Source: a virus. Taken from it: DNA of 35,198 nt. The DNA is taken from positions 1 to 35,198 of the IMG/VR virus record IMGVR_UViG_3300032134_000010, one strand, 5' to 3'. The notes under the pieces are model-generated. The model was given only the letters and a program-made list of their open reading frames with translations, was not told the DNA's origin and made no database searches. This document shows positions 17,553 through 33,236 of the stretch, in pieces. The translations under genes were made by a program, and so were the position numbers. Numbering within the stretch: the stretch's first letter is position 1; each line of letters opens with the position of its first letter.

Positions 17553-17553
17553 T

Positions 17554-17810: not shown

Positions 17811-17839
17811 AATATAACACATTAAACTCAGTTTATCAA
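17811..17839 (-). promoter_or_regulatory. Sigma70-like promoter after terminator, start of neck/tail unit
   Basis: On the minus strand TTGATA (17839-17834) and TATATT (17816-17811) are separated by exactly 17 bases. It begins just 5 bases after the stem and T-run of the terminator at 17844-17878 and lies about 30 bases before the 75-aa gene start. The -10 falls in an AT palindrome (TTATATTAAATATAA). A terminator followed at once by a promoter implies separate control of head and tail genes. Confidence 0.45.
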
Positions 17840-17843
17840 CAAA

Positions 17844-17878
17844 AAAACCCCACCTCCCAAAAAAAGAGGTGGGGTTTT
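17844..17878 (-). terminator. Rho-independent terminator after small structural gene
   Basis: A perfect 13-bp stem (AAAACCCCACCTC at 17844-17856 with its complement at 17866-17878) encloses a 9-base loop. On the minus strand it ends in GGGG followed by seven T. It follows the 149-aa gene (17902-18351) by 23 bases. A/T flanks on both sides mean it could work in both directions. Confidence 0.8.
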
Positions 17879-17901
17879 AAGTTTGCGTGCCTGAATAAAT
17901 G

Positions 17902-18351
17902 TTATGCTATAACAGGTAATCCAGCCACCGCGGTGGCGCCGGCGGCTACGCCGCCGCCTCTCGATGTGATAGCCCATCCACTGCCTGACCATACAAAAGT
18001 TGCATTTTCTCCTACTGTGGTGAAAGTAATTTTTGTATATGCGCCATCTGTAGTAGCTGGCGTGACCTTCCACGAGTTAGCTGATGAAGAAGCATAAACT
18101 ATTTTTATTTGGCCCGCGGTCGTGCCATCGGCTAGAGTCATAGCTTGGTCGGCGCCGGCGGCAAGTACTTTCGATATCGGAATAGTAATACTCAAGGCGC
18201 CGGCAGCGGATTTTACTTCTGTACTCAACGAAAGGCCGGCGGCGCTAGTAATCGTTGGTGATGTCAACGTTGTGTTCGCGAGGTTAAGGTCTCTGTCGAC
18301 CGCTTCCATAAGAGCTTCAAGGCGCCCCAGTCCCATTCTTCTATTTCCCAT
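17902..18351 (-). CDS. Small structural protein, probable head-associated (hypothetical)
   Basis: 149 aa. It starts MGNRRMGLGRLEALMEAVDR, a motif I recall in small virion proteins of marine T4-like phages, followed by a Ser/Thr/Ala/Gly-rich beta region with repeated short strands that ends WSGSGWAITSRGGG. There is no signal peptide. It has a very strong ribosome site (AAGGAGG) and sits alone between two terminators, directly after the major capsid gene. This suggests high-level, separately controlled expression, as for a decoration or minor capsid protein. The decoration role is inference. Confidence 0.65.
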   Translation of the reverse strand: MGNRRMGLGRLEALMEAVDRDLNLANTTLTSPTITSAAGLSLSTEVKSAAGALSITIPISKVLAAGADQAMTLADGTTAGQIKIVYASSSANSWKVTPATTDGAYTKITFTTVGENATFVWSGSGWAITSRGGGVAAGATAVAGLPVIA

Positions 18352-18387
18352 AATTTGTTTCCTCCTTCAAGGTGTGTTGTTTGATAT

Positions 18388-18401
18388 GGTTATCGATAAC
18401 C
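18388..18401. promoter_or_regulatory. 14-bp palindrome in leader of 149-aa gene
   Basis: GGTTATCGATAACC is a perfect palindrome. Three bases upstream of it on the minus strand is a TATAAT box, so it would cover the transcription start if that box is a -10. It could be a protein-binding operator. No matching -35 is evident. Confidence 0.3.
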
Positions 18402-18418
18402 CGATTATAATCACAAAA

Positions 18419-18469
18419 TATAGCCAGCCACTTCGGCTATAAATCTTTAAGGGTCAGTGGCCCCGACCC
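18419..18469 (-). promoter_or_regulatory. Structured leader region (two hairpins)
   Basis: Two inverted repeats lie in the 218-base gap after the capsid gene: TATAGCC/GGCTATA (18419-18425 with 18435-18441) and GGGTC/GACCC (18451-18455 with 18465-18469). They lie upstream of the 149-aa gene and downstream of the capsid terminator. A transcript from further upstream would fold here; purpose unknown. Confidence 0.35.
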
Positions 18470-18513
18470 CGAAGAAAACTCTCAAGTTACTTATAAATAG
18501 TTTACCACAAAAG

Positions 18514-18540
18514 AAAACCCCCGCTCCGAAGAGCGGGGGC
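18514..18540 (-). terminator. Rho-independent terminator after major capsid gene
   Basis: On the minus strand a 9-bp G+C-rich stem (CCCCCGCTC / GAGCGGGGG) is closed by a TTCG tetraloop and followed by TTTTCTTTT. It lies 30 bases after the capsid stop codon. The C(UUCG)G loop is exceptionally stable. Confidence 0.85.
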
Positions 18541-18569
18541 CGGAATACAATTCCTATTTAGCTAATTAG

Positions 18570-20345
18570 CTACGCACCAGACTCACCAAGGAGTCCGCGT
18601 ACAACAACCAAGCCATACATATCAGGACGCACCATCTTCTTCGCGTAACGCGTCATGACACCCTTACGGGGCACGAAATCGTCCGGTCCAAAGATAGTCG
18701 GCGTGACCTGTAGCGGCACGTAAGGACTATAAACATAGCCGCTTTCAAGGAAGCTATTACCCTTACGACCAACTAGAACAGCGTTTCTTGGGAAGTAGGG
18801 GTCAACATAGACATCCCACTTCTTATTAACGCTGCCAGACTTGAGAGTACCAGCAGTACCCCTGTCGCCATCGACGGTGACAGAAGCGCGGAAACCGGCT
18901 GTCATCTCAAGGATGCTAGCGATTTCTGGCGAAGTAACAATGAAGTTAGCTCCACCACGCAACGTCTTACGATGAATCTGTGCAGAAACGTCATTGACAG
19001 TCTCTAACAGAGTCTCATACCACTCGCTAACCGTACCAGTGAAGTCAGGGGCTGCTGACGTAGCACCAACCTCTGCACCGGTAGTTCTGTTAACGAACAA
19101 GCCGGGTGATCTTGACCAGTAATAAGTACCGGCAGTCGCACCCTTAATGAGATCTTCCAGAATCTCGCGGTCAATTTCCAGAGCAATCTGCTCTGAAAGA
19201 ATACCAGTAAGCTCAACCTCGGCATCCATATTGTGGTAGGCATTAAGATCCTGACCCAATTCTGGCGACCACTTGGCCTTAAGCTTCTTAGTCTTCGCAG
19301 TGACACTGATTGAATCAACCTTGATGTCGATCTCGGGAATTTGAGACTGATTCTCAAGATCCCATAAGCTGGCACCCACGACACCACCTAACGCACGCTC
19401 GCCCACATTGTCGAAGTTATCAACAATCGGGAATTCAACCTTGCGGAAGCCGGCGGTCGTGCCATTACTAGCACTAATCGAAGCTCCAAGCGTACCATGA
19501 GAAACGCCAGTGAGGCCCTTAAAGACCATGATGCCCTTATAGACAGTTGAGCTTGGCAGGTTATTAGCCGAAGCCGTCGAAACCTGAGTCAATCGGCGAA
19601 CGATCGTACCCGATGTTGGGTTAGGACCGTTGATGGCCGGCGCGACGCCGTCATTTTGTGAAAGACCAACTAAGTTATTCACATCCATCTGTGCTAATGC
19701 CGCAGAACCAGTCCATGTACAAACAACGACTGCCGAACCTTGAAGGTCTGGGTCGTGACGACAAAGCCTGTTAAGCTCTTCGCCGTAAGAACCACTACCC
19801 GGGAGTGTACCGGAGTGTGATGCGACCAGCGTAAAGTGGTCCGTAGACGAGGTTGGTGACGCGAAGCCGTTATTTAAATTATAAAAGCTCTTGTCAACCG
19901 CGCCGCCGGCTTCGGTAAGATCGACACCGCCGGTGATCTGACCAGCGACAACGCCTCCACCATACAGTGAGTCGTTGGCGTCGTAGCCGAGTCTTGCAGA
20001 ATTACCAGCGACTTGGAAATCCATGAAGAAGATGAGGCCCGAAGGCAGACTCATCGGTTGAACTGAAACCAGTTCGTTAGCGATCAAGCCGCCAAATACA
20101 CGTCGGACGATCGGAAATGCTACGGACGCGAAGCCCTCAACATCACCGCCGGCCATTGAGCTTGCTTCACGAAGAAGCTCTTTTGCTTGGTTCTCAAGCA
20201 GTACCGCCATAGTGTTTTTATCACGGTCATTGTCCATCCCCTCTAAAAGGCCGGTGCGCTCCCACTTCTGAAGTAGAGCCGCCCCTTCTTTCGCGAGGTC
20301 ACGATGCACAATGTTTTCTGTAAGTCTTTCAACAATACTAGACAT
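18570..20345 (-). CDS. 23: Major capsid protein (gp23)
   Basis: 591 aa from the ATG at 20345, which has a GGAGG site 7 bases upstream. A TTG codon at 20360 would add five residues but has no site of its own. Features of gp23-type HK97-fold capsid proteins are visible: the G-rich start of the mature region, FIVTSPEIASILE in the middle, and the conserved ending VPLQVTPTIFGPDDFVPRKG ... MVRPDMYGLVVVRGL. Residues 1-40 (ERLTENIVHRDLAKEG ... GLLEG) contain a possible (L/I)xE site for the prohead protease, which in T4 removes 65 residues. It is slightly longer than T4 gp23 (521 aa). The scaffold gene precedes it and a strong terminator follows. Confidence 0.9.
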   Translation of the reverse strand: MSSIVERLTENIVHRDLAKEGAALLQKWERTGLLEGMDNDRDKNTMAVLLENQAKELLREASSMAGGDVEGFASVAFPIVRRVFGGLIANELVSVQPMSLPSGLIFFMDFQVAGNSARLGYDANDSLYGGGVVAGQITGGVDLTEAGGAVDKSFYNLNNGFASPTSSTDHFTLVASHSGTLPGSGSYGEELNRLCRHDPDLQGSAVVVCTWTGSAALAQMDVNNLVGLSQNDGVAPAINGPNPTSGTIVRRLTQVSTASANNLPSSTVYKGIMVFKGLTGVSHGTLGASISASNGTTAGFRKVEFPIVDNFDNVGERALGGVVGASLWDLENQSQIPEIDIKVDSISVTAKTKKLKAKWSPELGQDLNAYHNMDAEVELTGILSEQIALEIDREILEDLIKGATAGTYYWSRSPGLFVNRTTGAEVGATSAAPDFTGTVSEWYETLLETVNDVSAQIHRKTLRGGANFIVTSPEIASILEMTAGFRASVTVDGDRGTAGTLKSGSVNKKWDVYVDPYFPRNAVLVGRKGNSFLESGYVYSPYVPLQVTPTIFGPDDFVPRKGVMTRYAKKMVRPDMYGLVVVRGLLGESGA

Positions 20346-20364
20346 AGTTTTATCCTCCAATTGT

Positions 20365-21324
20365 TTAGTCTATGCCCGCTAAACGCTTCATGCGTTCAGC
20401 GAAGTCATTATTCCCACTCTTCTCTTCGCTTCGTACACGAGATCTAAGAAGAATAGAAGACGAAGCTCGCTTACTTACTACTTCGCTAAGTGATTTTGAT
20501 CTCTTTTTATTAGAAATACCCACCGTGCTCTGAAGTGTCTCGTATACAATCTTCGCTTGCTCCAAAGAGCTAACCTCACCAATAGACTCGACAATTTTCT
20601 TCTTTTGTCGCTCATTCAAGGAGTCATCCATTAAAGTTTGATTCATGTAATGAAGCTTCCCGCTTGTTAGCTGGGCTTCATCAAATTTTTCTTTTATTTT
20701 TTCTGCTGTGTTAATTAATTCGTTTTTCATTTCATTAAGCTTTTTATATTTTGCCTGTAATGTTTTATTTTCTTTTTTGAGTTTGCTGTTCTTTTCTTCT
20801 AGGTCATCGTTATATTCGCTAATTGCAGCAACCAGTTCTGCAACATTTTCTCTACTATCAGCGTAATCTACAGGTGGTCTCATTTGCCCGTTGGCAAATC
20901 CCCCATCTGGCTTCATCTCATAATCAAATTTAAGTGACTCGGCGATTTCTTCTAACTCAGACTCCTCTATTTCTACAGACTCTTCTTCTAGCTCTTCGAC
21001 ATCTTCTTCTATCTTCTTTTCAGAAACAGTTTTGACATCTTCTTTTTCTAGATCACTTGCTTCTAAGCTGTGTAAGTCGATTTCTAATATCTTATCATCG
21101 TCAATTTCCATATGGAAAGCCTCTGGCAGTTGAGAATCTAAATCTTTTGCTAAAACAGCATCGGCATCTTGAGCTTCGGGAGTCTCTTCTTGTTCTAGTA
21201 AACGCTCGACGGTATCTTTTATCTGATCTGAAAATTGTTCTACTACAACTTGCTCCGCACTTTTGATCGCGGCCGACCGCAAAGCGGCGGCATCTACTAT
21301 TGCTTGTTCTAACATTGTCGACAT
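20365..21324 (-). CDS. 22: Prohead core scaffolding protein (gp22-like)
   Basis: 319 aa. A very acidic segment (about residues 90-135, Glu/Asp-rich) is followed by a long Lys/Glu coiled coil (about residues 170-230, EKNSKLKKENKTLQAKYKKL and on) and a conserved C-terminal helix (NERQKKKIVESIGEV, then LEQAKIVYETL) typical of T4-like scaffolds. The protein forms the inner core on which the capsid assembles and is cut up by the prohead protease; (L/I)xE motifs are frequent in it, for example LEIDL and ESLE-like stretches. The ATG (21324) follows GGAG. It lies directly before the capsid gene, as gene 22 precedes gene 23 in T4. Confidence 0.8.
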   Translation of the reverse strand: MSTMLEQAIVDAAALRSAAIKSAEQVVVEQFSDQIKDTVERLLEQEETPEAQDADAVLAKDLDSQLPEAFHMEIDDDKILEIDLHSLEASDLEKEDVKTVSEKKIEEDVEELEEESVEIEESELEEIAESLKFDYEMKPDGGFANGQMRPPVDYADSRENVAELVAAISEYNDDLEEKNSKLKKENKTLQAKYKKLNEMKNELINTAEKIKEKFDEAQLTSGKLHYMNQTLMDDSLNERQKKKIVESIGEVSSLEQAKIVYETLQSTVGISNKKRSKSLSEVVSKRASSSILLRSRVRSEEKSGNNDFAERMKRLAGID

Positions 21325-21336
21325 CGGAGGCTCTCC

Positions 21337-21369
21337 TATTTATATCTAGCTATGAATAAATAGTAATTA
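21337..21369 (-). promoter_or_regulatory. Candidate late promoter upstream of scaffold gene
   Basis: On the minus strand this stretch holds TAATTACTATTTAT (21369-21356) and, 11 bases on, TATAAATA (21344-21337), identical to the T4 late promoter core. It lies 13-45 bases before the scaffold ATG. It is the only intergenic TATAAATA in this orientation that I found; the neighbouring ACTATTTAT is recurrent. Either could be the late start signal. Confidence 0.4.
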
Positions 21370-21405
21370 AAAAAGTAAAGTGACATAGAAAGTGTTATCA
21401 GTGCT

Positions 21406-21768
21406 TTAGAAAGTGGAAAGAGAGACAAAACACCGGTTAGCAGCATCACTATTATTGCCGCCGTGTGTGACTCTTACCTTGTCTGCGCCAGCAGTTTCAT
21501 AAATTCTCACCGTAGAGGCTGCAACTATAGCTTGTGACCACGTTCCGTCGCCGTCATCAATGTGCATAGTGGACCATGTTGCGCTGGCATGATAATATAA
21601 TTCTATTTTCGTTACTGCTGCGGAGGCACCGCACTGAATATGCATAAATCTCTGGTTTTCGGTAGTGTATGCAACGGTTGACAGAACATGATCCGTACTG
21701 GTTCCTCCGTTTGCATTTTTTGGGCGCCGGGTTCGGCCCCAACTCTGGTGTACTTTAAAAGTCGACAT
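21406..21768 (-). CDS. Small beta-rich protein in head cluster, unknown
   Basis: 120 aa, Ser/Thr/Ala-rich, apparently all beta, with no signal peptide. Strands such as RFMHIQCGASAAVTKIELYYH and VRIYETAGADKVRVTHGG suggest a small beta-sandwich. The ATG (21768) has an AGAGG site. It lies between bS21 and the scaffold gene in the head cluster, so a minor capsid or decoration protein is the best guess. I do not recognise a family. Confidence 0.6.
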   Translation of the reverse strand: MSTFKVHQSWGRTRRPKNANGGTSTDHVLSTVAYTTENQRFMHIQCGASAAVTKIELYYHASATWSTMHIDDGDGTWSQAIVAASTVRIYETAGADKVRVTHGGNNSDAANRCFVSLSTF

Positions 21769-21792
21769 TTCTTTTCCTCTTTAATAATTAGT

Positions 21793-22002
21793 TTATTTTT
21801 TTGATTTAGTTTTTGTTTCTTTAATTAGTTCTTTCTTCCTTCTAATTCTTTCTCTTCTTTTTTTAGTAGAAGGTTTCTCATAGTACATTCGTTCTCTTAT
21901 CTCGTCTATAATACCTTCATTCCGAACTTTTTTACTAAATCGTTTAATCATCTTTTCAATAGTTTCGTTTCTACGCAAAGAAACTTTTACATTCACAGCC
22001 AT
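21793..22002 (-). CDS. rpsU: Ribosomal protein bS21
   Basis: 69 aa from the ATG at 22002, which has TAGG upstream; longer open-frame starts further 5' overlap the previous gene and add a non-homologous segment. The core RNETIEKMIKRFSKKVRNEG followed by RERMYYEKPSTKKRRERIRRKK is the ribosomal protein S21 signature. bS21 binds the 30S platform beside the anti-Shine-Dalgarno region of 16S rRNA and aids initiation. Virus-encoded bS21 is known from marine phages, including pelagiphages, and is thought to replace the host copy on ribosomes so that phage mRNAs are favoured. Here it is embedded between capsid-assembly genes, 7 bases after the 130-aa gene. Confidence 0.92.
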   Translation of the reverse strand: MAVNVKVSLRRNETIEKMIKRFSKKVRNEGIIDEIRERMYYEKPSTKKRRERIRRKKELIKETKTKSKK

Positions 22003-22009
22003 TTTATAC

Positions 22010-22402
22010 CTACTTATCAGCCAATAATTTCCAATTTCCCATACCCGGAATTTGTGATATGTCCACACCAGCATCACCAGAGCCAACTCCAGATAGCGGG
22101 TTTCCGACAGACGACTCGTTCATGGGCTGAGTGCCTTCAAATAAATCTACACCGCCGTATGCTTCTGCGCCCATGGCATGTAAAAGTTTATTTTTTGTTT
22201 CATTTATTTTTTGTTTCATTTCGTTGTCAGGTTTAGTTCTACTTTTCGCTCTTGGCTGTTTCACTTCTACTAGTTGTTTATTAGAAGTTCCTTTTATAAC
22301 CTCTGAAATAATACCTGATAACACACCATTTTCGAAGATAACTTCCTTAATACACTCTTTTATTAGCGGCTTTAAAATCTGTTTTAATTCGGCTTTCTTC
22401 AT
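22010..22402 (-). CDS. Head-cluster protein with N-terminal helix, unknown
   Basis: 130 aa. The N-terminus (MKKAELKQILKPLIKECIKE, a charged amphipathic helix) resembles the putative capsid-targeting helices of the accessory block at 30-33 kb. The rest is Gly/Asn/Ser-rich and probably disordered, ending GMGNWKLLAD. The ATG (22402) follows GAGGAT right after the protease gene (1-base gap), and bS21 follows. I recall similar proteins in the head clusters of marine myoviruses. A core or internal head protein processed by the adjacent protease is plausible. Confidence 0.65.
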   Translation of the reverse strand: MKKAELKQILKPLIKECIKEVIFENGVLSGIISEVIKGTSNKQLVEVKQPRAKSRTKPDNEMKQKINETKNKLLHAMGAEAYGGVDLFEGTQPMNESSVGNPLSGVGSGDAGVDISQIPGMGNWKLLADK

Positions 22403-22403
22403 C

Positions 22404-23015
22404 TTAATCCTCTAAAACACTATTTAGCACGCGGTTGATTCTATCTGCTTTTGTAAAAATTTTGTTAAGCGGATCTCTATTTTCTGTTAAATTCATAAAC
22501 GCGCCGGGCGTTGAAGGGTCGCTGACAATATCAAAGCATATAAGCTGAAAATCATCTTCTACTAAAGTTTGGCCATTGTTTTCTGTTACAGAGCCCAAGC
22601 CGCGTGATGAAATACCGACCTGTACGCCACCATTAATAAGCTCATTTAAAATCTTTCCGGAGGGGGTATTCAATACCTTTATTTTGCCCATGACTGATGC
22701 GCCGTCCATCCACACCTCTGTACACATGTGAGAGACATTCTGAAGGTTAATAACGGATGAGTCCGGATGATCTAATTCGCCGAGGGCGCGCATCTCTTGT
22801 ACTAATTTTCCGTAATTCTTAATTTCTCTTTCCATTATTGCCTTGGGGTACACGCGGCCGTTACCGTTCTGTACGTCGGCCTCTTGCAACTTACCGGTTA
22901 AAAAGACTACTTTATCTTCCACCACTTGTCGTTTTTCCTCTTCTGTGAGCATATCTTGGCATGTGCCGCCGTCACATAAAGCATAGTATTCTCTTAAAAG
23001 ATATTTCTTTGACAT
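22404..23015 (-). CDS. 21: Prohead maturation protease (gp21, family S80)
   Basis: 203 aa (T4 gp21 is 212 aa). The catalytic pattern is visible: GELDHP with His83, GISSRG with Ser136 or Ser137, and FDIVSDPS with Asp162/Asp166, the arrangement of herpesvirus-like serine proteases of the T4 type. After NGNGRVYP (near 51-57) it matches the family well. The enzyme sits in the prohead core and cuts scaffold, capsid protein and internal proteins after (L/I)xE motifs. Its ATG (23015) has GAGG. It is the expected partner of the N-terminal modules ending in IKE/LKE encoded at 30-33 kb. Confidence 0.88.
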   Translation of the reverse strand: MSKKYLLREYYALCDGGTCQDMLTEEEKRQVVEDKVVFLTGKLQEADVQNGNGRVYPKAIMEREIKNYGKLVQEMRALGELDHPDSSVINLQNVSHMCTEVWMDGASVMGKIKVLNTPSGKILNELINGGVQVGISSRGLGSVTENNGQTLVEDDFQLICFDIVSDPSTPGAFMNLTENRDPLNKIFTKADRINRVLNSVLED

Positions 23016-23028
23016 CCTCTTTTCCTCA

Positions 23029-23130
23029 TTAAGCGGGCATCACCCGCGTGGTTTGGCAGCCTTTTTTGCAAAGCCGCGGCGGTTGTAACATCCAGTGGTT
23101 CTCGACAAAAATATTAATTCCTTTTGACAT
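23029..23130 (-). CDS. Candidate 33-codon ORF in gap before protease
   Basis: An ATG at 23130 inside the end of the DUF1360-like gene (out of frame), preceded by GAAGGA four bases away, opens 33 codons to a TAA at 23029. The product has a basic CKKGC stretch. No homologue recognised, and a competing frame (GCYNRRGFAKKAAKPRG, which looks more protein-like but has no good start) covers the same bases. It may be a real small gene or chance. Confidence 0.2.
   Translation of the reverse strand: MSKGINIFVENHWMLQPPRLCKKGCQTTRVMPA
23033..23047 (-). other. Small hairpin before protease gene
   Basis: GCGGG/CCCGC with a CATCA loop, ending 18 bases before the protease start. There is no T-run, so it is not a terminator; it may affect protease translation. 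Confidence 0.25.
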
Positions 23131-23410
23131 TGATTCCTTCATCTCCAAATAATATACTTAAAGCATAAGATGTGCCCGAACTTAAGCTTCCCAAAATTAT
23201 TGGGTTAACCCAGTTCAGGTCAAATGTAAATAGTTCTGTGTAGAAAGAAATTCCGTAAAGAAAAACGCCAACCCAAAATCCCAGACACATCGGGCAGTGA
23301 AAAAGCTCTCCAAAGAACCCCTCTTCTGGTCTCACTTTGTTAAAGATACTACCGTATACCAAGGTTTGTGTTAAACCCCAAGCGGCCAATATAAAATATA
23401 ATAATTCCAT
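23114..23410 (-). CDS. DUF1360-like small membrane protein
   Basis: 98 aa with two or three predicted membrane segments: LLYFILAAWGLTQTLVYG at the N-terminus, FWVGVFLYGISFY in the middle, and a C-terminal WVNPIILGSLSSGTSYALSIL. The CPMCLGFW motif (CxxCxGFW) is like that of the DUF1360 family found in phages and bacteria. Its function is unknown; the protein probably sits in the host inner membrane. It lies between head genes with 1-base spacing, an odd place for a membrane protein, which may mean a role in anchoring prohead assembly at the membrane; that is speculation. Confidence 0.6.
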   Translation of the reverse strand: MELLYFILAAWGLTQTLVYGSIFNKVRPEEGFFGELFHCPMCLGFWVGVFLYGISFYTELFTFDLNWVNPIILGSLSSGTSYALSILFGDEGINVKRN

Positions 23411-23411
23411 T

Positions 23412-24038
23412 CTAAAGCCTGTAAATCAGCCCATACGGCTTATGGCCCGGGTCAATCGAGCCCTTCTTCTTTTCGTGCGGAACTTCCCCTAGTTCAGTTG
23501 TTTCATCATCATCGGGGTCTGTATAGTGGCTTGATACTTCGTCATCGTAAGTCATTGATTGTTTAACAATAATGACTTCATCTTTTAAGAATTGATAGAT
23601 AGTAAAAAGGAGTGTCTCTAGGGTGTCTATTTTATCATTGATTGGATACTTGCACTCCAACGAACCAAATATATTTCCGGACTGTACGCTGTCTAGTTGC
23701 GCCATGCCGCGCCTGATTAAGAAATCAAAAAACTTGTCTTGGTAAGGATAAGGGTCATAATTTATTCCTCTTTTAGCAAAAGTTATTATTTTGTTCTTTG
23801 AAGGATCAATAATTATATCATATATCGGGTGATCAAAAATCATATAATTGCCGTCTAGAGTCTTTCTTATTTTTAGATAAACTGTGAGCGGATCTCTAAT
23901 TTTAATCTTTATTTTCGGTTCGGCCTTTTTGACAATGACCCTTAATAAATCTTCTTCTGGAGTTTGTTCTTCCGGAAGCTCTTCTTCTGGGTTTACAAAT
24001 AACTTAATAGCTTCTAAGATTTCGCTTTCTCTAATCAT
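23412..24038 (-). CDS. Conserved head-cluster protein, unknown
   Basis: 208 aa. An acidic Pro/Glu linker (PEEELPEEQTPEED near residue 17) is followed by a basic strand-rich domain (KIKIKIRDPLTVYLKIRKTL), YPYQDKFFDFLIRRG and a helix-rich C-terminal part, ending in a basic tail. No catalytic motif is visible. It overlaps the preceding core-like gene by 8 bases. In T4 the genes between portal and protease (67, 68) encode prohead core proteins, and that is a reasonable but unproven guess here. Confidence 0.55.
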   Translation of the reverse strand: MIRESEILEAIKLFVNPEEELPEEQTPEEDLLRVIVKKAEPKIKIKIRDPLTVYLKIRKTLDGNYMIFDHPIYDIIIDPSKNKIITFAKRGINYDPYPYQDKFFDFLIRRGMAQLDSVQSGNIFGSLECKYPINDKIDTLETLLFTIYQFLKDEVIIVKQSMTYDDEVSSHYTDPDDDETTELGEVPHEKKKGSIDPGHKPYGLIYRL

Positions 24039-24852
24039 TACTTTGTATCTCGCTAACCAACTCTTGTATTTTTAAGATCTTCTTAAGAATCTTTTCATTT
24101 ATATACTGCTCTTTGAAGCCGTCTATAACGCCGATCACCTCATTCATTTTGCTAAGCATGCCGGCATCTTTTTTTATCTCTTCTGTTTTTAGGGAGGTCT
24201 CTATGTGGCCTTTCAACCTTCCCAACTCTTCATTCAAAAAATACCTTAACTCTAAGCCGCTATCCTTAAAAGAACCTACATATTTTGAAAGCAATTCTTT
24301 TTGTTCTTCCAAGAGATTTCCGTATGTTTCATTAAACTTTTTAGAAAACACTTTAAGTTCAGTAGTATTAAGCCTCTTGGTTTTGACAGCCTGAGCCACT
24401 GGCTGAATCATATATGATACGATTTGTTTTTCCAGCATTATTTTCTTTTTTATCGGAGTACTTTGATTAAAAATCTGAGATATGCTAGCTATAGCCTTGT
24501 AGTTCGGAACAAAATTAGTAAAAACATCTGCAGACACCTTTTTGTTTATTCGCGACACAAGTTGTGATTGTGTGTCGAAGACGTTGCTGCTATTCAAGGA
24601 AAGATATACTCTTTTAACCTCGCTTACGATCTTCTCAGCGTCGTCTCTAGAGGCGCCCTTTGTTTCATATAAGTTCTTGTACAAAGAAAGCTCTTGAAAC
24701 AGCACTGTATTCTTATTGAAAAACTCAACCAAAACATCTTTGACAATCTTTTCTCTTGCGCGATCATCCCGAAGAGCCGCCTTTGTTAGCTCTCTAACAA
24801 GTGCTTCGAATAAAAAAGCTGTATTTCTCCGCTTATTGTGCTTCAACTTCAT
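24031..24852 (-). CDS. Putative prohead core/portal-associated protein
   Basis: 273 aa, Lys/Leu/Asn/Glu-rich and nearly all helical; it starts MKLKHNKRRNTAFLFEALV. I recall this N-terminus in marine myovirus proteins encoded next to the portal gene. The gene overlaps the portal end by 20 bases and the next gene by 8, so it is translationally linked to both. There are no membrane segments or enzymatic motifs. By position, between portal and protease, it matches the T4 core genes. A core protein is my best guess. Confidence 0.6.
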   Translation of the reverse strand: MKLKHNKRRNTAFLFEALVRELTKAALRDDRAREKIVKDVLVEFFNKNTVLFQELSLYKNLYETKGASRDDAEKIVSEVKRVYLSLNSSNVFDTQSQLVSRINKKVSADVFTNFVPNYKAIASISQIFNQSTPIKKKIMLEKQIVSYMIQPVAQAVKTKRLNTTELKVFSKKFNETYGNLLEEQKELLSKYVGSFKDSGLELRYFLNEELGRLKGHIETSLKTEEIKKDAGMLSKMNEVIGVIDGFKEQYINEKILKKILKIQELVSEIQSND

Positions 24853-26872
24853 CTCTCTTTTTCTCCAAGTTTCTAATCAAATTTTCGATTTCATTGCTTG
24901 ATCTAAACAATTTCTTTTCCGCGATAATGTTATAATTAGCTTTGTTTTCTGAAACTATTCCCTTAGACAGGCTATCAAAATTATATTTTAGGCCCAGACC
25001 TCTTTTGCCGCCTTGTCTGTGGCCGGCTTGAGACATCATGTTTTTCTTGCGAGGTACCGATCCTTTTCTCTTATCTAGTTCTTTTGGCACGGGCTTATAC
25101 CATTTGCCCTTTGATTTATCAGTTGTTGTTTCTGTGTTTCCAAGCATATCTTGTTTCTTAACTTTGTGCCACATATATTCGCCTTCGTCTCTCTTACCGG
25201 GCGGTGGGCCGGCCTCTTCTGGGGCCGCAAGGAGGCCATCAAAGCCCTCACCGGCTTCGGCTGGGGCTTCTGCTGCTTCTGGTGTCGGGGGCTCGCCGGC
25301 CATGTCTTCCATACCACCCATGTCTTCCATGCCGCCCATGTCTTCCATGCCGCCCATATCACCTAGGGCACCCATCTCGGCGGCTCCAGCAGCATCGCCG
25401 GCCACTTCTGCCACCTTGGCCATAGAAGCTTCAAGCTTTTTATCATAGAAACGTTCTCTCTGGTTTCTTACAAACTCCTCTTCGGAAATGGAAAGAATAT
25501 TTTTCGCGACCCATCTCTTACTAAACATTTGGCCAATGGCAGTGTCAACTAGGGCTAGTTTAGTATTCCAGTGTTCAAGCTCTTGCATCTCCGCAATTTT
25601 TGAAGGGTTGTGTAGTTTCATCTTAAAAGAAGTTAAATCTTCCCCTCTGTAACCCAGCGTGTATAAATGAACGATCGCTATTTTTTCTAATTCGGAAACA
25701 AGTGATCGCTGCAACCTTTGAATTGTCCGCGCAAATCGAATATCTTTTTGAGCTAATGTTGCCTTGTCTTCTTCGCCGCCTTCGCCGCGAATAAGATATG
25801 ACATTGGAATTTTAATTGCAGCAAACAGCTTGTCGCGCATATACTTAACATCGTCAATGGCAGTGGCCCATGTTGTGCCGCTTAAGTTTTCAATTTTAGT
25901 CCCGCTCTGCCCGCCGCGAACTGGAATATAAAAGTCTTCTTCGATCGAAGCCGGGTTATATCTCAAATCAACTTTGCCAGATTGTGTGTCAATAACGGAG
26001 TGACGCTTCATCTGAGTCATCGCTTTCTGCATGAATTGTTCGACATCTTCCGGAGGTACACCGCCGACATCGATATAAAAGATACGGCGATCGGGTGATC
26101 GTACAATACGATAAGCCATCATCGCATCTTCAAGCATTGTCAGTTGGCGCCAAATTCTTCTAGCCGGATCTAAAATACTAGTTCCATATGGCGCATATTT
26201 GTCGTTACCTAAAACCCTGAAGTGTGCGACTTGCCAATTTTCTAAAGTCATACCAGCGGCATTCCACTGAAACTGAATATAGCTTGGGTTGGTTTCATCT
26301 TGGCCTTCCAGTCTTTCGACTTCAGAAGGTGGCAGTCCTATAACATTTTTTATGCCTATTTCCTCATCAATGTCCAAGTATAAAAAGAAATCTCCATACT
26401 TAGACATTGTGCGGGCCCAGCTGTATAAGTTGTTTTCGACGTTTAATACTTGATAAAAAAGTGTATTTAATATTTCTTTGATTTCCAAGTTCAAACAATC
26501 AACTACGAGTAGCGGGCTATAATTTGTATGTGTTGTGATCTCGTCTGCATAAATATCGAGTGCCGAGGCCAACTCCGGGGTGAACTCCATTTGATCAAAA
26601 TCGGCATATCTTTCTGATCGGTTTTGGTTAAACATAATGTTTGCCAAAACGCTTTCAAACGGATTATAAGATTTCTTCTTAAATTGTTGGCCACTTGCTG
26701 ATTTAAACCTTTTTGCTGACTTATCTAAGTGGTGCTTTCTGCCCACTCTTACTTGCTGCCTTCTATAATTAACAATCGGGCCCGACAGCAACCTAGTTAA
26801 TTTCTTAAATAAGGTAGATTCTGAATTTCTTGGATTTCTTGGCGTAACTTGTCTTGTGTTTTTTCTAACCAT
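24833..26872 (-). CDS. 20: Portal protein (gp20)
   Basis: 679 aa. The body (about residues 1-490) has the gp20 pattern: FDQMEFTPELASALDIYADE near residue 93, PPSEVERLEGQDE, an arginine-rich RRIWRQLTMLEDAMMAYRIVRSPDRRIFYIDVGG stretch (read as pattern), and IKIPMSYLIRGEGGEED. T4 gp20 is 524 aa; this one carries an extra ~170-residue C-terminal region made of low-complexity Met/Gly/Glu/Asp repeats (three near-identical MEDMGG units), an Ala/Pro/Glu linker and a basic tail. Twelve copies should form the portal vertex that drives head nucleation and DNA entry. The terminase gene precedes it with 11 bases between. Confidence 0.88.
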   Translation of the reverse strand: MVRKNTRQVTPRNPRNSESTLFKKLTRLLSGPIVNYRRQQVRVGRKHHLDKSAKRFKSASGQQFKKKSYNPFESVLANIMFNQNRSERYADFDQMEFTPELASALDIYADEITTHTNYSPLLVVDCLNLEIKEILNTLFYQVLNVENNLYSWARTMSKYGDFFLYLDIDEEIGIKNVIGLPPSEVERLEGQDETNPSYIQFQWNAAGMTLENWQVAHFRVLGNDKYAPYGTSILDPARRIWRQLTMLEDAMMAYRIVRSPDRRIFYIDVGGVPPEDVEQFMQKAMTQMKRHSVIDTQSGKVDLRYNPASIEEDFYIPVRGGQSGTKIENLSGTTWATAIDDVKYMRDKLFAAIKIPMSYLIRGEGGEEDKATLAQKDIRFARTIQRLQRSLVSELEKIAIVHLYTLGYRGEDLTSFKMKLHNPSKIAEMQELEHWNTKLALVDTAIGQMFSKRWVAKNILSISEEEFVRNQRERFYDKKLEASMAKVAEVAGDAAGAAEMGALGDMGGMEDMGGMEDMGGMEDMAGEPPTPEAAEAPAEAGEGFDGLLAAPEEAGPPPGKRDEGEYMWHKVKKQDMLGNTETTTDKSKGKWYKPVPKELDKRKGSVPRKKNMMSQAGHRQGGKRGLGLKYNFDSLSKGIVSENKANYNIIAEKKLFRSSNEIENLIRNLEKKRDEVEAQ
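25301..25354 (-). repeat. 18-bp tandem repeat in portal gene
   Basis: Three head-to-tail copies of an 18-base unit (CATGTCTTCCATRCCRCC, plus strand) encode GGMEDM hexapeptides. The last two copies are identical; the first differs at two bases. A fourth, diverged copy follows at 25355-25372. Confidence 0.85.
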
Positions 26873-29397: not shown

Positions 29398-29843
29398 TTC
29401 GCAGTCTGCACCGCTGCATAGAATATGCCCATGGCCACAGATACGCCGACAATCACCCCACCTGTAAAGAACCAGTGATTATAGTCGTTGGGCTTTTCAA
29501 GCGTTATTTTCTGAAGATGATCGATTTCATTATTTTTAATTCTTATAATAGCATCGTATTTTTTTTCTGTAGCTTCCAGCGAAGTCTTAACCACAGAGGT
29601 AAACATATCACATCTGGCTGTTTCTTTGGCTAAGTTGTGCTTAAGCTGTAGTGTACACTCTAGTTGGCCCTTCTCTTTGGAGGCTAATAATACGGCGTTT
29701 GCTTGGTAGTTGTAAAGAATGCCGTTGAAGGGGGCCTTCTGGCCTTGTTTTATTTCTGCTACTTTGGGGGTTTCTGCGAAGGCAGTTAAGGGAAGCCAGA
29801 CTAAACTAAAGATCAGTGCCGTCGTGTAGATTTTTTTCATCAT
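29394..29843 (-). CDS. Exported protein with C-terminal membrane segment (lysis-related?)
   Basis: 149 aa. A signal peptide (KKIYTTALIFSLVWLPLTAFA, cut after AFA) is followed by a short GQKAPFNGILYN motif, a coiled-coil-like helix with two Cys (QLECTLQL, ARCDMF), and a C-terminal transmembrane segment (WFFTGGVIVGVSVAMGIFYAA). Both ends would be in or at the inner membrane with the middle in the periplasm. I recall the APF-G-L/Y start from phage proteins of this type. The start ATG pair (29843/29840) lies inside the 3' end of the i-spanin-like gene (38-base overlap), as for Rz/Rz1 pairs, but there is no lipobox Cys, so it is not a classic o-spanin. Lysis regulation is the best guess. Confidence 0.5.
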   Translation of the reverse strand: MMKKIYTTALIFSLVWLPLTAFAETPKVAEIKQGQKAPFNGILYNYQANAVLLASKEKGQLECTLQLKHNLAKETARCDMFTSVVKTSLEATEKKYDAIIRIKNNEIDHLQKITLEKPNDYNHWFFTGGVIVGVSVAMGIFYAAVQTAK

Positions 29844-30255
29844 CTGTTATAACCAGTTCAAAGCCAAATTGTTCAGCTATTTTTTTGACTCTGCCTTCAG
29901 GATCATTATGAGTCTCTTTGACAATTTCTTTAACCCTTTTCTTTTCCCACTCGCGCATTTTGAGGTTTTGCTTCTTATATTCATCATCAAGCTTCATAAG
30001 GGTTTTGCTGTAGTCCAAGATGAGTTTTTCTTTTTTATCCACCTCTTCTCGGTGGATCCGATTGATTGCGGATATTTCTTCTTTGTGGGATTGCTTGGTT
30101 AGTTTAAATGTTTGTTTGATGCTTTCGGTGTTTTTGTTTTTTCTAAATAAAACGACCACAACTACAGTGTAAGCAGCGAGAGCGAAGTATTGCCAGTATT
30201 TAATAATGGTTACGTATGCTTTCTTAAAAAATATTTTAATTGCTAACCAAGTCAT
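29806..30255 (-). CDS. i-spanin-like inner-membrane coiled-coil protein
   Basis: 149 aa. An N-terminal membrane segment (YWQYFALAAYTVVVVVLF, residues 20-37) is followed by a periplasmic Lys/Glu/Ile coiled coil (about residues 40-110), the layout of Rz-type inner-membrane spanins, which fuse inner and outer membranes at lysis. The ATG at 30255 has an AAGAG site. It overlaps the next gene by 38 bases, similar to Rz/Rz1 nesting. It would need an outer-membrane partner with a lipobox, which I do not see here. A structural membrane protein is an alternative. Confidence 0.5.
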   Translation of the reverse strand: MTWLAIKIFFKKAYVTIIKYWQYFALAAYTVVVVVLFRKNKNTESIKQTFKLTKQSHKEEISAINRIHREEVDKKEKLILDYSKTLMKLDDEYKKQNLKMREWEKKRVKEIVKETHNDPEGRVKKIAEQFGFELVITDDEKNLHDGTDL

Positions 30256-30263: not shown

Positions 30264-30521
30264 TTAATAGCTATCATCAGGTGTATACATATGTTCACCA
30301 TCATATTCATCGTCGTAACCTTCATCGTCGCCCATCATCTCGGCCGACCAAGCCAGCAGCTTTTTTATAATTGATTCTAGAGCAGTGCGAGCGCCCGGAT
30401 CTTCTACACGGCTCACGGCCTTGTCAAGATCATCGATTAATATCTCCAGACGGACTGACGGTTTTGGTCGCTCGTCTTCCTCTTTCAAGTGCTTTCGCCA
30501 GTTTTCTAATAATAGTTTCAT
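30264..30521 (-). CDS. Cassette A1: small acidic protein with capsid-targeting-like N-terminus
   Basis: 85 aa. The first 15 residues, MKLLLENWRKHLKEE, are identical to those of A2 (30545-31060) and almost identical to A3 (32097-32435). After them come a charged helix and an acidic, Tyr/Asp-rich C-terminus. The tag ends in LKE, matching the (L/I)xE cleavage consensus of T4-type prohead proteases, so the tag may be a capsid-targeting sequence and the rest an internal head protein. The leader and coding tag are identical at DNA level to A2 over 57 bases. The protein body is unrelated to its neighbours. Function of the body is unknown. Confidence 0.7.
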   Translation of the reverse strand: MKLLLENWRKHLKEEDERPKPSVRLEILIDDLDKAVSRVEDPGARTALESIIKKLLAWSAEMMGDDEGYDDEYDGEHMYTPDDSY

Positions 30522-30534
30522 TGTTTATTTACCT
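30478..30534 (-). repeat. Cassette A repeat, copy 1
   Basis: 57 bases covering the ribosome site and the first ~15 codons of A1; identical to copy 2 (31017-31073) and similar to copy 3 (32396-32449). The repeat stops within the tag, and the protein bodies beyond it differ completely. Confidence 0.9.
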
Positions 30535-30550
30535 TATGTTTTTTCTAAAC
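30522..30550 (-). repeat. Shared leader, copy 1
   Basis: 29 bases identical to 31398-31426, running from just before the start codon back through the stop codon of the upstream gene (GTT TAG on the minus strand). It includes the AAGG ribosome site and TAAATAAACA. Confidence 0.85.
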
Positions 30551-31060
30551 TGACGCCGGATCATAGAGATCTAAGCCGTCATCATTATATTTCATGTAGT
30601 ATTGTTCACTGCCTGATGCGTAGTTGTCGATGTAATCCATGAGTTCTTTACGCGTAAATCCAGACTCTTTTTCTGCCTCATCCCACGGAATGAAACCGTC
30701 GTCATCGCCGGAAGGAGCGGCGCCGTGAATGTACGACCAGATGCGGCCATCACCGGTGTCATCAAGCTGGGCTTCTTCTTCGGGTGGCGCGGCGGCCTCT
30801 GCGGCGAAGTCCCTTACAAGCTTAAATATTTTTAGCAACTCATAATCAGGGTCTTCGCCGGCTTGTTCTTTCTCTGCTTCTGCTTGTGCAGCAGCCGTCG
30901 CGTCCTCGTCATTGGTTGCCCCTTCGATGAGCTCAACACCGATCTCGCCATACGATTTCACCTGCGCGTAATATGTGGCAGCAGCTTCAGCGGATCCTTC
31001 AGTTGGCAAGGTTGACTCCTCTTTCAAGTGCTTTCGCCAGTTTTCTAATAATAGTTTCAT
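30545..31060 (-). CDS. Cassette A2: acidic Ala/Glu-rich protein with capsid-targeting-like N-terminus
   Basis: 171 aa. The N-terminal 15 residues equal those of A1. The body is very acidic, with Ala/Glu/Asp-rich stretches (for example DEDATAAAQAEAEKEQ), WSYIHGAAPSGDDDG near residue 118, and an ELMDYIDNYA helix near the end. There is no membrane segment. The start has GGAGAGG. The gene follows cassette B1 so closely that the B1 stop TAA lies inside the shared leader. Like its siblings it is a candidate internal head protein; nothing more can be said of its activity. Confidence 0.7.
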   Translation of the reverse strand: MKLLLENWRKHLKEESTLPTEGSAEAAATYYAQVKSYGEIGVELIEGATNDEDATAAAQAEAEKEQAGEDPDYELLKIFKLVRDFAAEAAAPPEEEAQLDDTGDGRIWSYIHGAAPSGDDDGFIPWDEAEKESGFTRKELMDYIDNYASGSEQYYMKYNDDGLDLYDPASV

Positions 31061-31073
31061 TGTTTATTTACCT
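31017..31073 (-). repeat. Cassette A repeat, copy 2
   Basis: 57 bases identical to copy 1 (30478-30534). It covers the A2 start and reaches into the stop codon of B1. Confidence 0.9.
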
Positions 31074-31397
31074 CTCCAAGGCTGCAGCGTCTTCTTGTGC
31101 TTGGTACCAAGCAGCGGTTTTCTCGGCCTCGGTGGGGGTACCGCGTGCTATTTTGTCAAGTTTATAGATCGTCATACCTATATCGAGTATAAATTCAACC
31201 TTGTCATCGATCAAGAGAACCACTTTGCCGTCCTTGTTCTTGCCTATATCGACCACGCTGCTCGCGCCTGCAAAATCCAGTTCGTGATTATACTCACCAG
31301 CATCCACTGTTACTCTATAAGTTTCAGGCCCTGCGCCAAGTTCTGCTTCAAGCTCTTCTTTAATAATGCGCTTTAATGCTTGTTTTGTTAGTTTCAC
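31068..31397 (-). CDS. Cassette B1: small protein with a second capsid-targeting-like N-terminus
   Basis: 109 aa from a GTG start. The N-terminus MKLTKQALKRIIKEELEAEL is nearly the same as that of B2 (31421-32035), with IKE at the expected protease site. The body has a compact beta pattern (YRVTVDAGEYNHELDFAG, KVVLLIDDKVEFILDIG) and a helix-rich end. The GTG start should give lower expression than the ATG copies. The leader matches that of A1 at DNA level although A1 carries the other tag, so leaders and tags have been combined in different ways. Confidence 0.7.
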   Translation of the reverse strand: MKLTKQALKRIIKEELEAELGAGPETYRVTVDAGEYNHELDFAGASSVVDIGKNKDGKVVLLIDDKVEFILDIGMTIYKLDKIARGTPTEAEKTAAWYQAQEDAAALER

Positions 31398-31409
31398 TGT
31401 TTATTTACC
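31341..31409 (-). repeat. Cassette B repeat, copy 1
   Basis: About 69 bases covering the ribosome site and the first 19 codons of B1, highly similar to 31979-32048. Confidence 0.85.
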
Positions 31410-31426
31410 TTATGTTTTTTCTAAAC
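31398..31426 (-). repeat. Shared leader, copy 2
   Basis: 29 bases identical to 30522-30550. It includes the stop codon of B2 (GTT TAG) and the B1 ribosome site. Confidence 0.85.
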
Positions 31427-32035
31427 GTTAGTATTGAATACGATTTTCCACATATAATCGCACCCACCTGTCTCCTCGTGTTCGGGATATAGTTCTTTTA
31501 ATTGAGCCACTGTCGGAAATCCGTGTTTGGCCAGACCCGGGTCAACACTTCTGGCTATTGTGCAGCCCTGATTGCCGCCGTAAGTAATTGTTAACTTGTT
31601 TCGCTCAATCTTAAGTCTGACGAGACCGAATCGATGTTGGCCAACACCAAGCTTTGCGAGAAGTGCTTTCATTTCCTCGCCATCGACAGGCGTGGCTGTT
31701 GCCGCGGCTGGCGCGGTCGCAGCCCATGGAATAACGTTGGGTTCTACGCTCGGATTGATCTGGTTCATCCCCGGCTCGGGGCTATAGCTGGGAACTTTTT
31801 CTGTAACGTAGGCATGCCCCTCTTCTGTAAGTTTTGCGTAAAGACCACTACTGTCATGAGGTATGGTAAAAGACGCTGGCAACTCTACAGTTGCAAGGTC
31901 GATCCAATCCCTGCCGCTCTTATCGCCCGGGCGTAAGCCCTTTACGGTGAACCACTTCTTTTGATCAGATCCTTCAAGCTCTGCTTCAATCTCTTCTTTA
32001 ATAATGCGTTTTAATGCTTGTTTTGTTAATCTCAT
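31421..32035 (-). CDS. Cassette B2: 204-aa protein with capsid-targeting-like N-terminus
   Basis: 204 aa. The tag MRLTKQALKRIIKEEIEAEL is followed by a body with two beta-rich halves: KWFTVKGLRPGDKSGRDWID near residue 27 and RFGLVRLKIERNKLTITYGGNQGC near residue 140, joined by a Pro/Ala-rich linker (PWAATAPAAATATP). There is no catalytic motif that I recognise. The leader upstream contains a partial copy of the 3' end of the holin-like gene. As for the other cassette proteins, delivery into the head is inferred from the tag only. Confidence 0.7.
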   Translation of the reverse strand: MRLTKQALKRIIKEEIEAELEGSDQKKWFTVKGLRPGDKSGRDWIDLATVELPASFTIPHDSSGLYAKLTEEGHAYVTEKVPSYSPEPGMNQINPSVEPNVIPWAATAPAAATATPVDGEEMKALLAKLGVGQHRFGLVRLKIERNKLTITYGGNQGCTIARSVDPGLAKHGFPTVAQLKELYPEHEETGGCDYMWKIVFNTNV

Positions 32036-32048
32036 TGTTTATTTATCC
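31979..32048 (-). repeat. Cassette B repeat, copy 2
   Basis: About 70 bases similar to 31341-31409, including the B2 ribosome site and tag-coding sequence. Confidence 0.85.
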
Positions 32049-32080
32049 TTTGTTAATGGTTGCCCTGTTTTCCAAGTCAT
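32036..32080 (-). pseudogene. Duplicated 3' remnant of holin-like gene
   Basis: This stretch is a diverged copy of 32436-32480, the last 12 codons and leader of the holin-like gene. It still encodes MTWKTGQPLTKDK then a TAA, against AWKTGQLLTKDK in the intact gene. It shows that cassette duplication took along part of the upstream neighbour. It is an open 13-codon frame with an AGAGG upstream, so a leader-peptide use is possible though unlikely. Confidence 0.75.
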
Positions 32081-32096
32081 ACTGCCTCTTCTTCCG

Positions 32097-32435
32097 CTAC
32101 TGGTCGAACGCGCCCAAAGGGAGATCCGGGGCTTGCCACTCGTCGGTGTCTTCATCAGCCTCATCGTCTTCGGCCGGTTCCAATGTTTCAATGGCAAATT
32201 GTAATGCCTCGATGAGCGCTGCTTCTTCGTCAGAACGGCCCGGTATATTCAGATTCAGATCACCGCTTTGGGCAAGTGCACCTTTGAGCTTTTTGAACTG
32301 TTCAATTGCGTTTTTCCGCGACTGTTCTTTTTGTTGGTCTTCGGTTCCCGGCGGGGTGGAACCGATAGGACGACCCTCGTAACGGTCTTGGCCTTCTTTT
32401 AAGTGCTTTCGCCAGTTTTCTATTAATAGTTTCAT
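32097..32435 (-). CDS. Cassette A3: small protein with capsid-targeting-like N-terminus
   Basis: 112 aa. The tag MKLLIENWRKHLKEG is a near copy of A1 and A2, with one Leu to Ile change and a final Gly. The body starts with a Gln/Glu/Lys-rich helix and ends in a very acidic tail (ETLEPAEDDEADEDTDEW). It follows the holin-like gene by 3 bases and is followed by the duplicated remnant of that gene. The (L/I)xE site is LKE before Gly. Role as for the other cassettes. Confidence 0.7.
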   Translation of the reverse strand: MKLLIENWRKHLKEGQDRYEGRPIGSTPPGTEDQQKEQSRKNAIEQFKKLKGALAQSGDLNLNIPGRSDEEAALIEALQFAIETLEPAEDDEADEDTDEWQAPDLPLGAFDQ

Positions 32436-32449
32436 TGTTTATTTATCCT
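32396..32449 (-). repeat. Cassette A repeat, copy 3
   Basis: A diverged copy of the A1/A2 repeat, differing at a few positions, with the TATCC rather than TACC leader variant. Confidence 0.8.
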
Positions 32450-32654
32450 TTGTTAGTAGTTGCCCTGTTTTCCAAGCCACAGCAATATCTGCCACGCCTT
32501 GTGATCCAATATAGGCTAGGGCTATAGCCACCCACTGTTCGCTGTTAACGTATTCTGTTAGGAGTAGTGCTGTCGTGGAGATCCACACCAGCAGCTTCCT
32601 TGACATAAACCTTTCTAAATATTTGTCCGCAAACGCTTTTGTTCTTGCCATCAT
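32439..32654 (-). CDS. Holin-like small membrane protein
   Basis: 71 aa from the ATG at 32654 (or the next ATG at 32651), which has a strong GGAGG site; a longer GTG start at 32735 overlaps the cysteine-rich mini-ORF and has no such site. A basic N-terminal helix (TKAFADKYLERFMSRK) is followed by two membrane segments (LLVWISTTALLLTEYV and WVAIALAYIGSQGVADIAVAW) and a short charged tail, the class II holin layout. The gene lies in a block with spanin-like genes, supporting a lysis role. Its last codons are duplicated downstream at 32036-32080. A general membrane protein remains possible. Confidence 0.55.
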   Translation of the reverse strand: MMARTKAFADKYLERFMSRKLLVWISTTALLLTEYVNSEQWVAIALAYIGSQGVADIAVAWKTGQLLTKDK

Positions 32655-32655
32655 C

Positions 32656-32748
32656 TCACCCTCCGGTTTGGTCGCTCTGCATACAGCAACAGGTGCAGTC
32701 GCAGTTATACTCACAATCACACTGTTCGCAACCACACATAGCTGCCAT
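32656..32748 (-). CDS. Cysteine-rich 30-aa mini-protein (metallothionein-like)
   Basis: 30 codons. Nine of the residues are Cys (positions 5, 7, 10, 12, 16, 18, 20, 21, 22), in CxC, CxxC and CCC arrangements like metal-thiolate clusters of metallothioneins. Acidic residues lie between them; the last eight residues have none. The ATG shares bases with the stop of the upstream gene (TAATG), and the TGA ends one base before the next ATG, so it sits exactly between two genes with translational coupling on both sides. Such fit is unlikely by chance. It may bind zinc or copper, or be a disulphide-rich peptide. No family recognised. Confidence 0.6.
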   Translation of the reverse strand: MAAMCGCEQCDCEYNCDCTCCCMQSDQTGG

Positions 32749-33236
32749 TATTCTTCATTCCCAAAAGCAGTTAACAACTTTTGATAAACCATCTGTTCTA
32801 ATTTCTTTGATTCGTATGGGAAATTTTTGCCGCTAGCCTTGCTAGCTTTCTTAGGCTCGTTGCCCTTTTCTTTTTTCTTTTTGGGCTCGTCTTCGTCTTC
32901 GTCTTCATCTTCGTCATCTTCCCACTCTTCGTGTGTCTGGTCGGGGTGCACTTCTTCACATTCTTCTTCACTGTGATCTTCGGGCTTTTCGCCGTCTACT
33001 AGTTCCTGAATGTCTTCAGCATATGCTTGCCAACGTTCTTCGTCAGAATCGTACTCAGCCTCTTCCCACTTTTCTAGGATGTCTTTTAGCTGCTGTATGT
33101 GTGCAGGCTCTTCCGGTTCGGGCGGTGACTCGTCGGAACCCTCTTCAGGCTCTTCTTCGTCTCTTTTATATTTTTTTGTGGCCAAAGACAACTCTTCATT
33201 TATGATCGTCTTCAGGCGCCCAACAGTAATTTTCAT
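32748..33236 (-). CDS. Acidic protein with capsid-targeting-like N-terminus
   Basis: 162 aa. The N-terminus MKITVGRLKTIINEE resembles the B-type tags (basic amphipathic helix ending I-N-E), followed by an extremely acidic Glu/Asp body (for example EDDEDEDEDEDE near residue 105), a Lys-rich patch (PKKKKEKGNEPKK) and a final helix. It may be an internal head protein or a DNA-mimicking acidic protein. The ATG (33236) has GGGGA. It follows the gp46-like gene and ends in a TAATG overlap with the cysteine-rich ORF. Confidence 0.65.
   Translation of the reverse strand: MKITVGRLKTIINEELSLATKKYKRDEEEPEEGSDESPPEPEEPAHIQQLKDILEKWEEAEYDSDEERWQAYAEDIQELVDGEKPEDHSEEECEEVHPDQTHEEWEDDEDEDEDEDEPKKKKEKGNEPKKASKASGKNFPYESKKLEQMVYQKLLTAFGNEE

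Follow-up and report, generated by a model that had tools for sequence, protein, structure and literature searches.

An array of small genes sharing two interchangeable, capsid-targeting-like N-terminal tags in an uncultured T4-like phage

Tagged genes of the window

The linear IMG/VR record IMGVR_UViG_3300032134_000010 (35,198 bases, analysed over its whole length and called the window below) comes from an uncultured virus, a T4-like phage that is probably marine, whose T4-like head and tail genes include the major capsid protein gene, those for portal, terminase and sheath, and one for a prohead protease of family S77. Five adjacent genes on its minus strand (30264-32435) begin with one or the other of two N-terminal tags, A and B, fused to unrelated bodies, in the order A B B A A. 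This observation, made in the original prediction from the DNA letters, is confirmed; the interpretation given with it, a modular set of head-packaged and injected effector proteins, is partly supported. An SbcC-like gene lies upstream and is followed, in order, by these features:

32748..33236, minus strand: sixth tagged gene, 162 residues, B-like tag MKITVGRLKTIINEE, very acidic body
32439..32735, minus strand: small transmembrane-protein gene, left border of the slot
32097..32435, minus strand: tag A gene, first of the array, 112 residues, tag MKLLIENWRKHLKE at 32435-32394, body unrelated to the others
32040..32081, minus strand: remnant mini-gene of 13 codons, MTWKTGQPLTKDK and a stop, lying just before the 32035 gene and copied from the 3' end of the transmembrane gene
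31421..32035, minus strand: tag B gene, 204 residues, tag MRLTKQALKRIIKEE at 32035-31991
31068..31397, minus strand: tag B gene, 109 residues, GTG start, tag at 31397-31353
30545..31060, minus strand: tag A gene, 171 residues, tag at 31060-31019, acidic body
30264..30521, minus strand: tag A gene, 85 residues, tag at 30521-30480, acidic body
29806..30255, minus strand: gene at the right border of the slot, starting MTWLAIK..., kept in every syntenic relative

The sixth gene, which the original prediction described as starting with a similar basic helix, does carry a B-like tag, but it is not contiguous with the array, the transmembrane gene standing between them; its homologue occupies the matching place in a relative (L004), and its body contains a DE-rich run resembling T4 gp67. 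At the DNA level the A tags of the window make up a repeat of 57 nucleotides with identities of 100% and 89%; that of the B tags is 80 nucleotides long and 89% identical. Both repeats take in the ribosome-binding stretch (GGTAAATAAACA or GGATAAATAAACA). The 3' end and ribosome-binding site of the transmembrane gene are partly duplicated before the 32035 gene. Because of these shared upstream stretches and the 13-codon remnant, the sequence points to recently active recombination at the module formed by ribosome-binding site and tag.

No window body has a significant PHROG or Pfam family match or, in the same searches, homology to a known internal protein; a sequence search of the PDB gave chance-level matches only, and the 31421 gene has no match in cultured phages. 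AlphaFold2 modelling of its 204-residue B protein (31421-32035) from a single sequence was too poor for a fold search (predicted local distance difference test, pLDDT, 37).

Variability of the slot and exchange of bodies

Relatives of the window were located via the terminase and via the tag. Between the transmembrane gene and the right border gene (63-69% identical among the tag-bearing relatives) there are five tagged genes in the window, two in L005, one each in L004 and L074, and at least one in L367; L354, L355, L357, L359 and L364 have no tagged genes in the slot, and their gene order is kept. The ten tagged bodies of the slot in the window and four relatives are mutually unrelated (best non-self expect value, E, 0.12). 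Homologous bodies occur behind different tags, with tag A in one phage and a third class, tag C (e.g. MKHLRRYIRKLLAEE), in the 288-kilobase (kb) genome G035, at 35 to 71% identity, and, in two cultured phages, Mel-JY01 of Microcystis and immuto of Flavobacterium, also behind another leader resembling a capsid-targeting sequence (CTS). No tag is visible on a few homologues. The variable slot and the homologous bodies behind different tags bear out the modularity that had been proposed.

Tag families in viral and cellular sequences

Tag A reads MKL[LI]xENWRK[FYH][LI]xE and tag B MK[IL]TKxxLKxIIKEE. Searches of IMG/VR for either tag left positions 13 onward free; the counts obtained are lower bounds, and proportions here and below hold among the matches listed. 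The degenerate DNA pattern of tag A gave at least 120 matches, nearly all at the starts of open reading frames with differing bodies, versus 0 for a codon-permuted control of the same composition in IMG/VR; the tag A pattern also gave 0 matches in 84,980 bacterial and archaeal genomes. When the pattern was left unanchored, ATG lay exactly three codons upstream in 134 of the 160 distinct matches listed, and GTG or TTG in 11 more. Tabulating the bodies, a check put forward in the original prediction, sorted at least 141 A-tagged proteins into about 86 body clusters and at least 174 B-tagged proteins into about 146. The tag B pattern, whose match count is likewise a lower bound, was compared with a permuted control, which gave 10 matches. 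The tag observation in the window is far beyond chance. A stricter B pattern matched four contigs among cellular genomes, all from metagenome-assembled genomes, and these are probably misbinned phage, because both assemblies that hold several B tags also hold an S77 protease. Searching cultured phages by tblastn with tag-length queries, which have little power, gave no match.

The repeats might instead be a nucleotide element that is read as protein by chance, such as a hot spot of recombination, an enhancer of translation or a regulatory RNA. This could be suspected from the window repeat, which takes in the ribosome-binding site and is up to 100% identical over 57 nucleotides. However, the 140 A tags compared across viruses comprise 132 differing DNA versions with varied synonymous codons, preceded by 137 differing upstream sequences, so that conservation is at the level of protein and not of DNA. 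The synonymous codons of tag A vary freely, and therefore selection acts on the peptide; we reject the nucleotide element on this codon diversity and regard its probability as very low.

Anatomy of the tags and the T4 capsid-targeting register

Every tag of the window ends in (L/I)xE, as the original prediction had it: LKE or IKE in the array, INE in the 33236 gene and IKE in the head-cluster gene that starts at 22402. Of the 145 A tags and 189 B tags listed from the wider families, 78% and 95%, respectively, have this motif ending at residue 14 (background 1-2%), and Glu14 is present in 87% of the same 145 A tags. Conservation of A tags is near background from residue 16 on. B tags show a second [LI]xE peak at residue 21/22 (about 38% of the 189 listed), after which conservation drops. 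Positions P3 and P1, counted from the predicted cut, are thus conserved, and conservation is lost soon after P1. The P1' residue is mixed in A tags, Glu at the first B site, and most commonly Gly or Ala at the second; this second site may mark a two-step or alternative cut.

In T4, residues 4 and 7 of the CTS drive targeting and residues 8 and 10 processing, and gp21 cleaves after L/I-X-E (PMC9026906). In the T4 record, IPII and IPIII start MKTYQEFIAE/A (slash, cut), with Y4, F7, I8 and E10; W8, F/Y11, L/I12 and E14 of tag A have the same spacing, as do L8, I11, I12 and E14 of tag B and the corresponding residues of tag C. Counted from the cut, the T4 signal has aromatic residues at P7 and P4, Ile at P3 and Glu at P1; tag A has Trp, Phe/Tyr, Leu/Ile and Glu at these positions, and tag B has Leu, Ile, Ile and Glu, being aliphatic where tag A is aromatic. 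Unsupervised clustering of N-termini, blind to the motif, united ipI, ipII and ipIII of T4 with gp61.1 in one cluster. It separated out A and B groups in both G009 and G015 and, in G035, a B/C group of 36 genes, whereas phiKZ and SPO1 yielded no such tag group. Enrichment of the heptad motif at N-termini over protein interiors was 3.7-fold in the window and 3.8 to 5.8-fold in three tag-rich genomes, compared with 3.3-fold in T4, 1.6-fold in SPO1 and 0.9-fold in phiKZ. The proposed capsid-targeting-like design is upheld by the spacing of the T4 signal and by the clustering that recovers T4 internal proteins I, II and III.

Three further observations concern other N-termini. T4 gp61.1 (NC_000866 18966-19130, locus L568), annotated as hypothetical, starts MKTFKEFIKE and is a candidate fourth T4 internal protein. 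The cultured jumbo phage XacN1 of Xanthomonas, which has an S77 protease, encodes three unrelated proteins (117330-117659, 190362-191417 and 238329-239063) that start MKFLQSLIEA, MRFVQYLIEA and MRFTSYLIET, possibly a capsid-targeting leader. G035 encodes seventeen small proteins that start MKxGDLV (L439-L453, e.g. 11200-25081, minus strand); this shared start probably reflects a domain family of SH3/KOW-like type that has expanded, and not a tag.

Head genes and co-occurrence with the S77 protease

The head cluster of the window contains the following genes:

22404..23015, minus strand: prohead protease of the T4 gp21 family (Peptidase_S77, PF03420, E 5.7e-31; phrog_207)
22010..22402, minus strand: conserved head-cluster protein, MKKAELKQILKPLIKECIKEVIFE..., with two LxE/IxE-like helices and 34 homologues
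20365..21324, minus strand: probable gp22-like scaffold, judged by its position between protease and capsid and by composition; in G015 and G009 its homologues immediately precede the capsid gene
18570..20360, minus strand: major capsid protein (gp23-like), candidate propeptide site ELLRE/A (Glu65 if the TTG start is used)

The protease is of T4 type, as the original prediction stated, but belongs to family S77 and not to S80. The 22402 gene does start with a similar helix ending in IKE and had been counted with the cargo; homologues occur in many relatives with the array present or absent, and it is a conserved head gene, not cargo.

Among tag-bearing records, S77 was found in 38 of 50 of at least 95 kb and in all 22 of at least 150 kb, compared with 2 of 17 random IMG/VR contigs (both weak matches, and only three of these controls reach 140 kb). 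S77 is common in large phages, and because of this and the few long controls the co-occurrence is weak evidence, supportive but not decisive. Two of the random contigs hold divergent S77 domains inside 747-residue open reading frames (G052:C1:12079-12438 and G053:C1:104823-105182), possibly a protease fused to another head protein.

The tags could alternatively be general docking helices for some other phage machine, such as a membrane, tail, transcription or replication complex, with the LxE incidental: amphipathic helix-like repeats are common, and a role in the producing cell would suit some of the tagged enzymes. We consider this improbable, as no feature outside the search pattern is kept more selectively than the C-terminal [LI]xE, which is also mostly kept when homologous bodies bear another tag and is matched by an S77 protease in all the tag-bearing records of at least 150 kb.

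Functions of the tagged bodies and proposed role of the array

Most tagged bodies are assigned no family by Pfam. Matches among 91 A bodies were to P-loop and zeta-toxin-like kinases, protein kinases, GNAT acetyltransferases, a C5 DNA methylase, NUDIX, exonuclease, nucleotidase, HAD and M23 peptidase families; 100 B bodies gave almost no Pfam matches. An A-tagged protein with a YHYT motif, suspected to be ADP-ribosyltransferase-like, was modelled too poorly by AlphaFold2 (pLDDT 44) for a fold search.

From the tags, the slot and the T4 precedent we infer the following route. The array would be an accessory cargo slot, each gene encoding cargo behind a cleavable N-terminal helix, of the pattern (aromatic or aliphatic)-x-x-(aromatic or aliphatic)-[L/I]-x-E, that targets the prohead core. 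During assembly the helix would dock the cargo onto the core, the gp21-type S77 protease would cut after the Glu and free the cargo among the DNA, and the cargo would enter the next host with the genome and act there on defences or physiology. Tags A and B would be interchangeable address labels, and bodies would be gained, lost and swapped via recombination at the shared stretch of ribosome-binding site plus tag. Sequence features make core targeting and gp21-type cleavage of the tagged proteins quite likely; injection followed by effector function, argued from analogy, is somewhat favoured, and the full statement, a slot for prohead-targeted, gp21-cleaved internal proteins injected to act in the host, is judged probable. 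T4 Ip1, Ip2 and Ip3 have only the leader in common, and the GmrSD restriction enzyme that is blocked differs among the three (PMC12373910); because of this analogy we infer that the tagged bodies may be delivered counter-defence or takeover proteins.

Several findings weigh against this route. P1' is often Glu (25 A tags and 157 B tags among those listed), where the T4 sites read have Ala or Ser. S77 was found in only 2 of 27 A-tagged fragments of 38-90 kb, and a size-matched test for S77 on such fragments did not discriminate; in near-complete records the A genes are mostly tens of kb from the protease. A tagged nucleotidase, DnaQ-like exonuclease and M23 peptidase could work inside the producing cell. 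Five of the six window bodies have a net charge of -0.10 to -0.23 per residue (the sixth, -0.03), unlike the basic T4 internal proteins (+0.03 to +0.06). This last point is the main uncertainty: acidity would be as much in keeping with mimicry of DNA, or with core proteins of the gp67 type, as with effectors that are injected.

Because the window bodies are strongly acidic, the tagged proteins may be accessory prohead-core (scaffold) proteins like T4 gp67 and gp68, which would be docked, cut and expelled before DNA fills the head, tuning assembly and never being injected. The DE-rich run of 32748-33236 agrees with such a role, as does the conserved head gene 22010-22402, which adjoins the protease and starts with a similar double LxE helix. 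Parts of a scaffold are expected to be conserved, yet several relatives have no tagged gene in the slot and the bodies found there in the others are unrelated, and the A-body families include enzymes, which would make poor scaffolds; we hold a core role to be unlikely.

A more far-reaching version of the delivery route, which we put forward as speculative and on the whole doubtful, is that interchangeable tags mark the proteins delivered by the virion, a set that has no fixed membership, is exchanged rapidly and in the largest genomes would run to dozens of proteins per virion, and that tags A, B and C dock to different core partners as parallel loading routes, for larger and partly enzymatic (A, C) versus small (B) cargo. 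If injected delivery is correct, a tag of 14 residues would be enough to pick out, directly from metagenomes, the proteins that are probably carried in the heads of uncultured T4-like viruses. Many candidates for proteins that counter defences or take over the host would be obtained in this way, together with further cleavable tags by which proteins could be loaded into the heads of phages. Three internal proteins of T4 have different GmrSD targets (PMC12373910), a precedent which suggests that many unannotated bodies could be counter-defence proteins.

Upstream elements

No enrichment of the T4 late promoter TATAAATA is seen upstream of tagged genes. CTATTTA does not serve as main evidence: it appeared 10 times as frequent as in random windows, but compared with other genes it is enriched only before A-tagged genes, and modestly (14.9% versus 8.7%, p 0.012), with no enrichment before B-tagged genes. 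An orientation-specific element, mostly ACTATTTA, is found on the minus strand of the window at 21363, 17551, 14534 and 9399 and at many tag-bearing loci. In the window as well as in G009 and G015, structural genes such as those for scaffold, sheath and tail tube are preceded by it at a distance of about 25-80 nucleotides, and it occurs before 8.7% of genes (reverse complement, 1.0%). This element may be the late promoter of the clade, in place of the T4 TATAAATA.

Comparison with known systems

The ejection (E) proteins of SPN3US and phiKZ-type giant phages (PMC7411985, PMC10052503) resemble the proposed cargo in that many are packaged in the head and some are cut by the prohead protease, but they belong to another phage lineage, and phiKZ has neither an S77 match nor a tag group. 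The Dar antirestriction proteins of phage P1 (PMC12810830) are likewise several head-packaged proteins, co-injected with DNA against restriction, in a different phage; packaging is presumed for the proteins described here. T4 gp67 and gp68 share acidity, L/I-X-E sites and an S77-protease phage with the tagged proteins, but their genes lie in the head cluster, whereas the array is variable and outside it.

The closest likeness is to the T4 CTS and the internal proteins IPI, IPII and IPIII: a short N-terminal leader on otherwise unrelated small proteins (PMC9026906, PMC3012670, PMC12373910), an [LI]xE ending with P7-P4-P3-P1 spacing identical to that of IPII and IPIII, an encoded gp21-family protease, and bodies that vary at variable loci. 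The bodies of the T4 internal proteins are not homologous to each other (PMC12373910). The tagged proteins, known here from their genes, differ in having new leaders (ENWRK and TKxxLKxIIKEE types) of 14-22 residues, up to 36 tagged genes per genome versus 3-4 in T4, some bodies that match enzymes, acidic bodies in the window, and a P1' that is often Glu. No description of the tag families, of their scale or of their partly enzymatic cargo came to light in the open literature searched (subscription journals and preprints lay outside its scope); the underlying kind of system is already known from T4.

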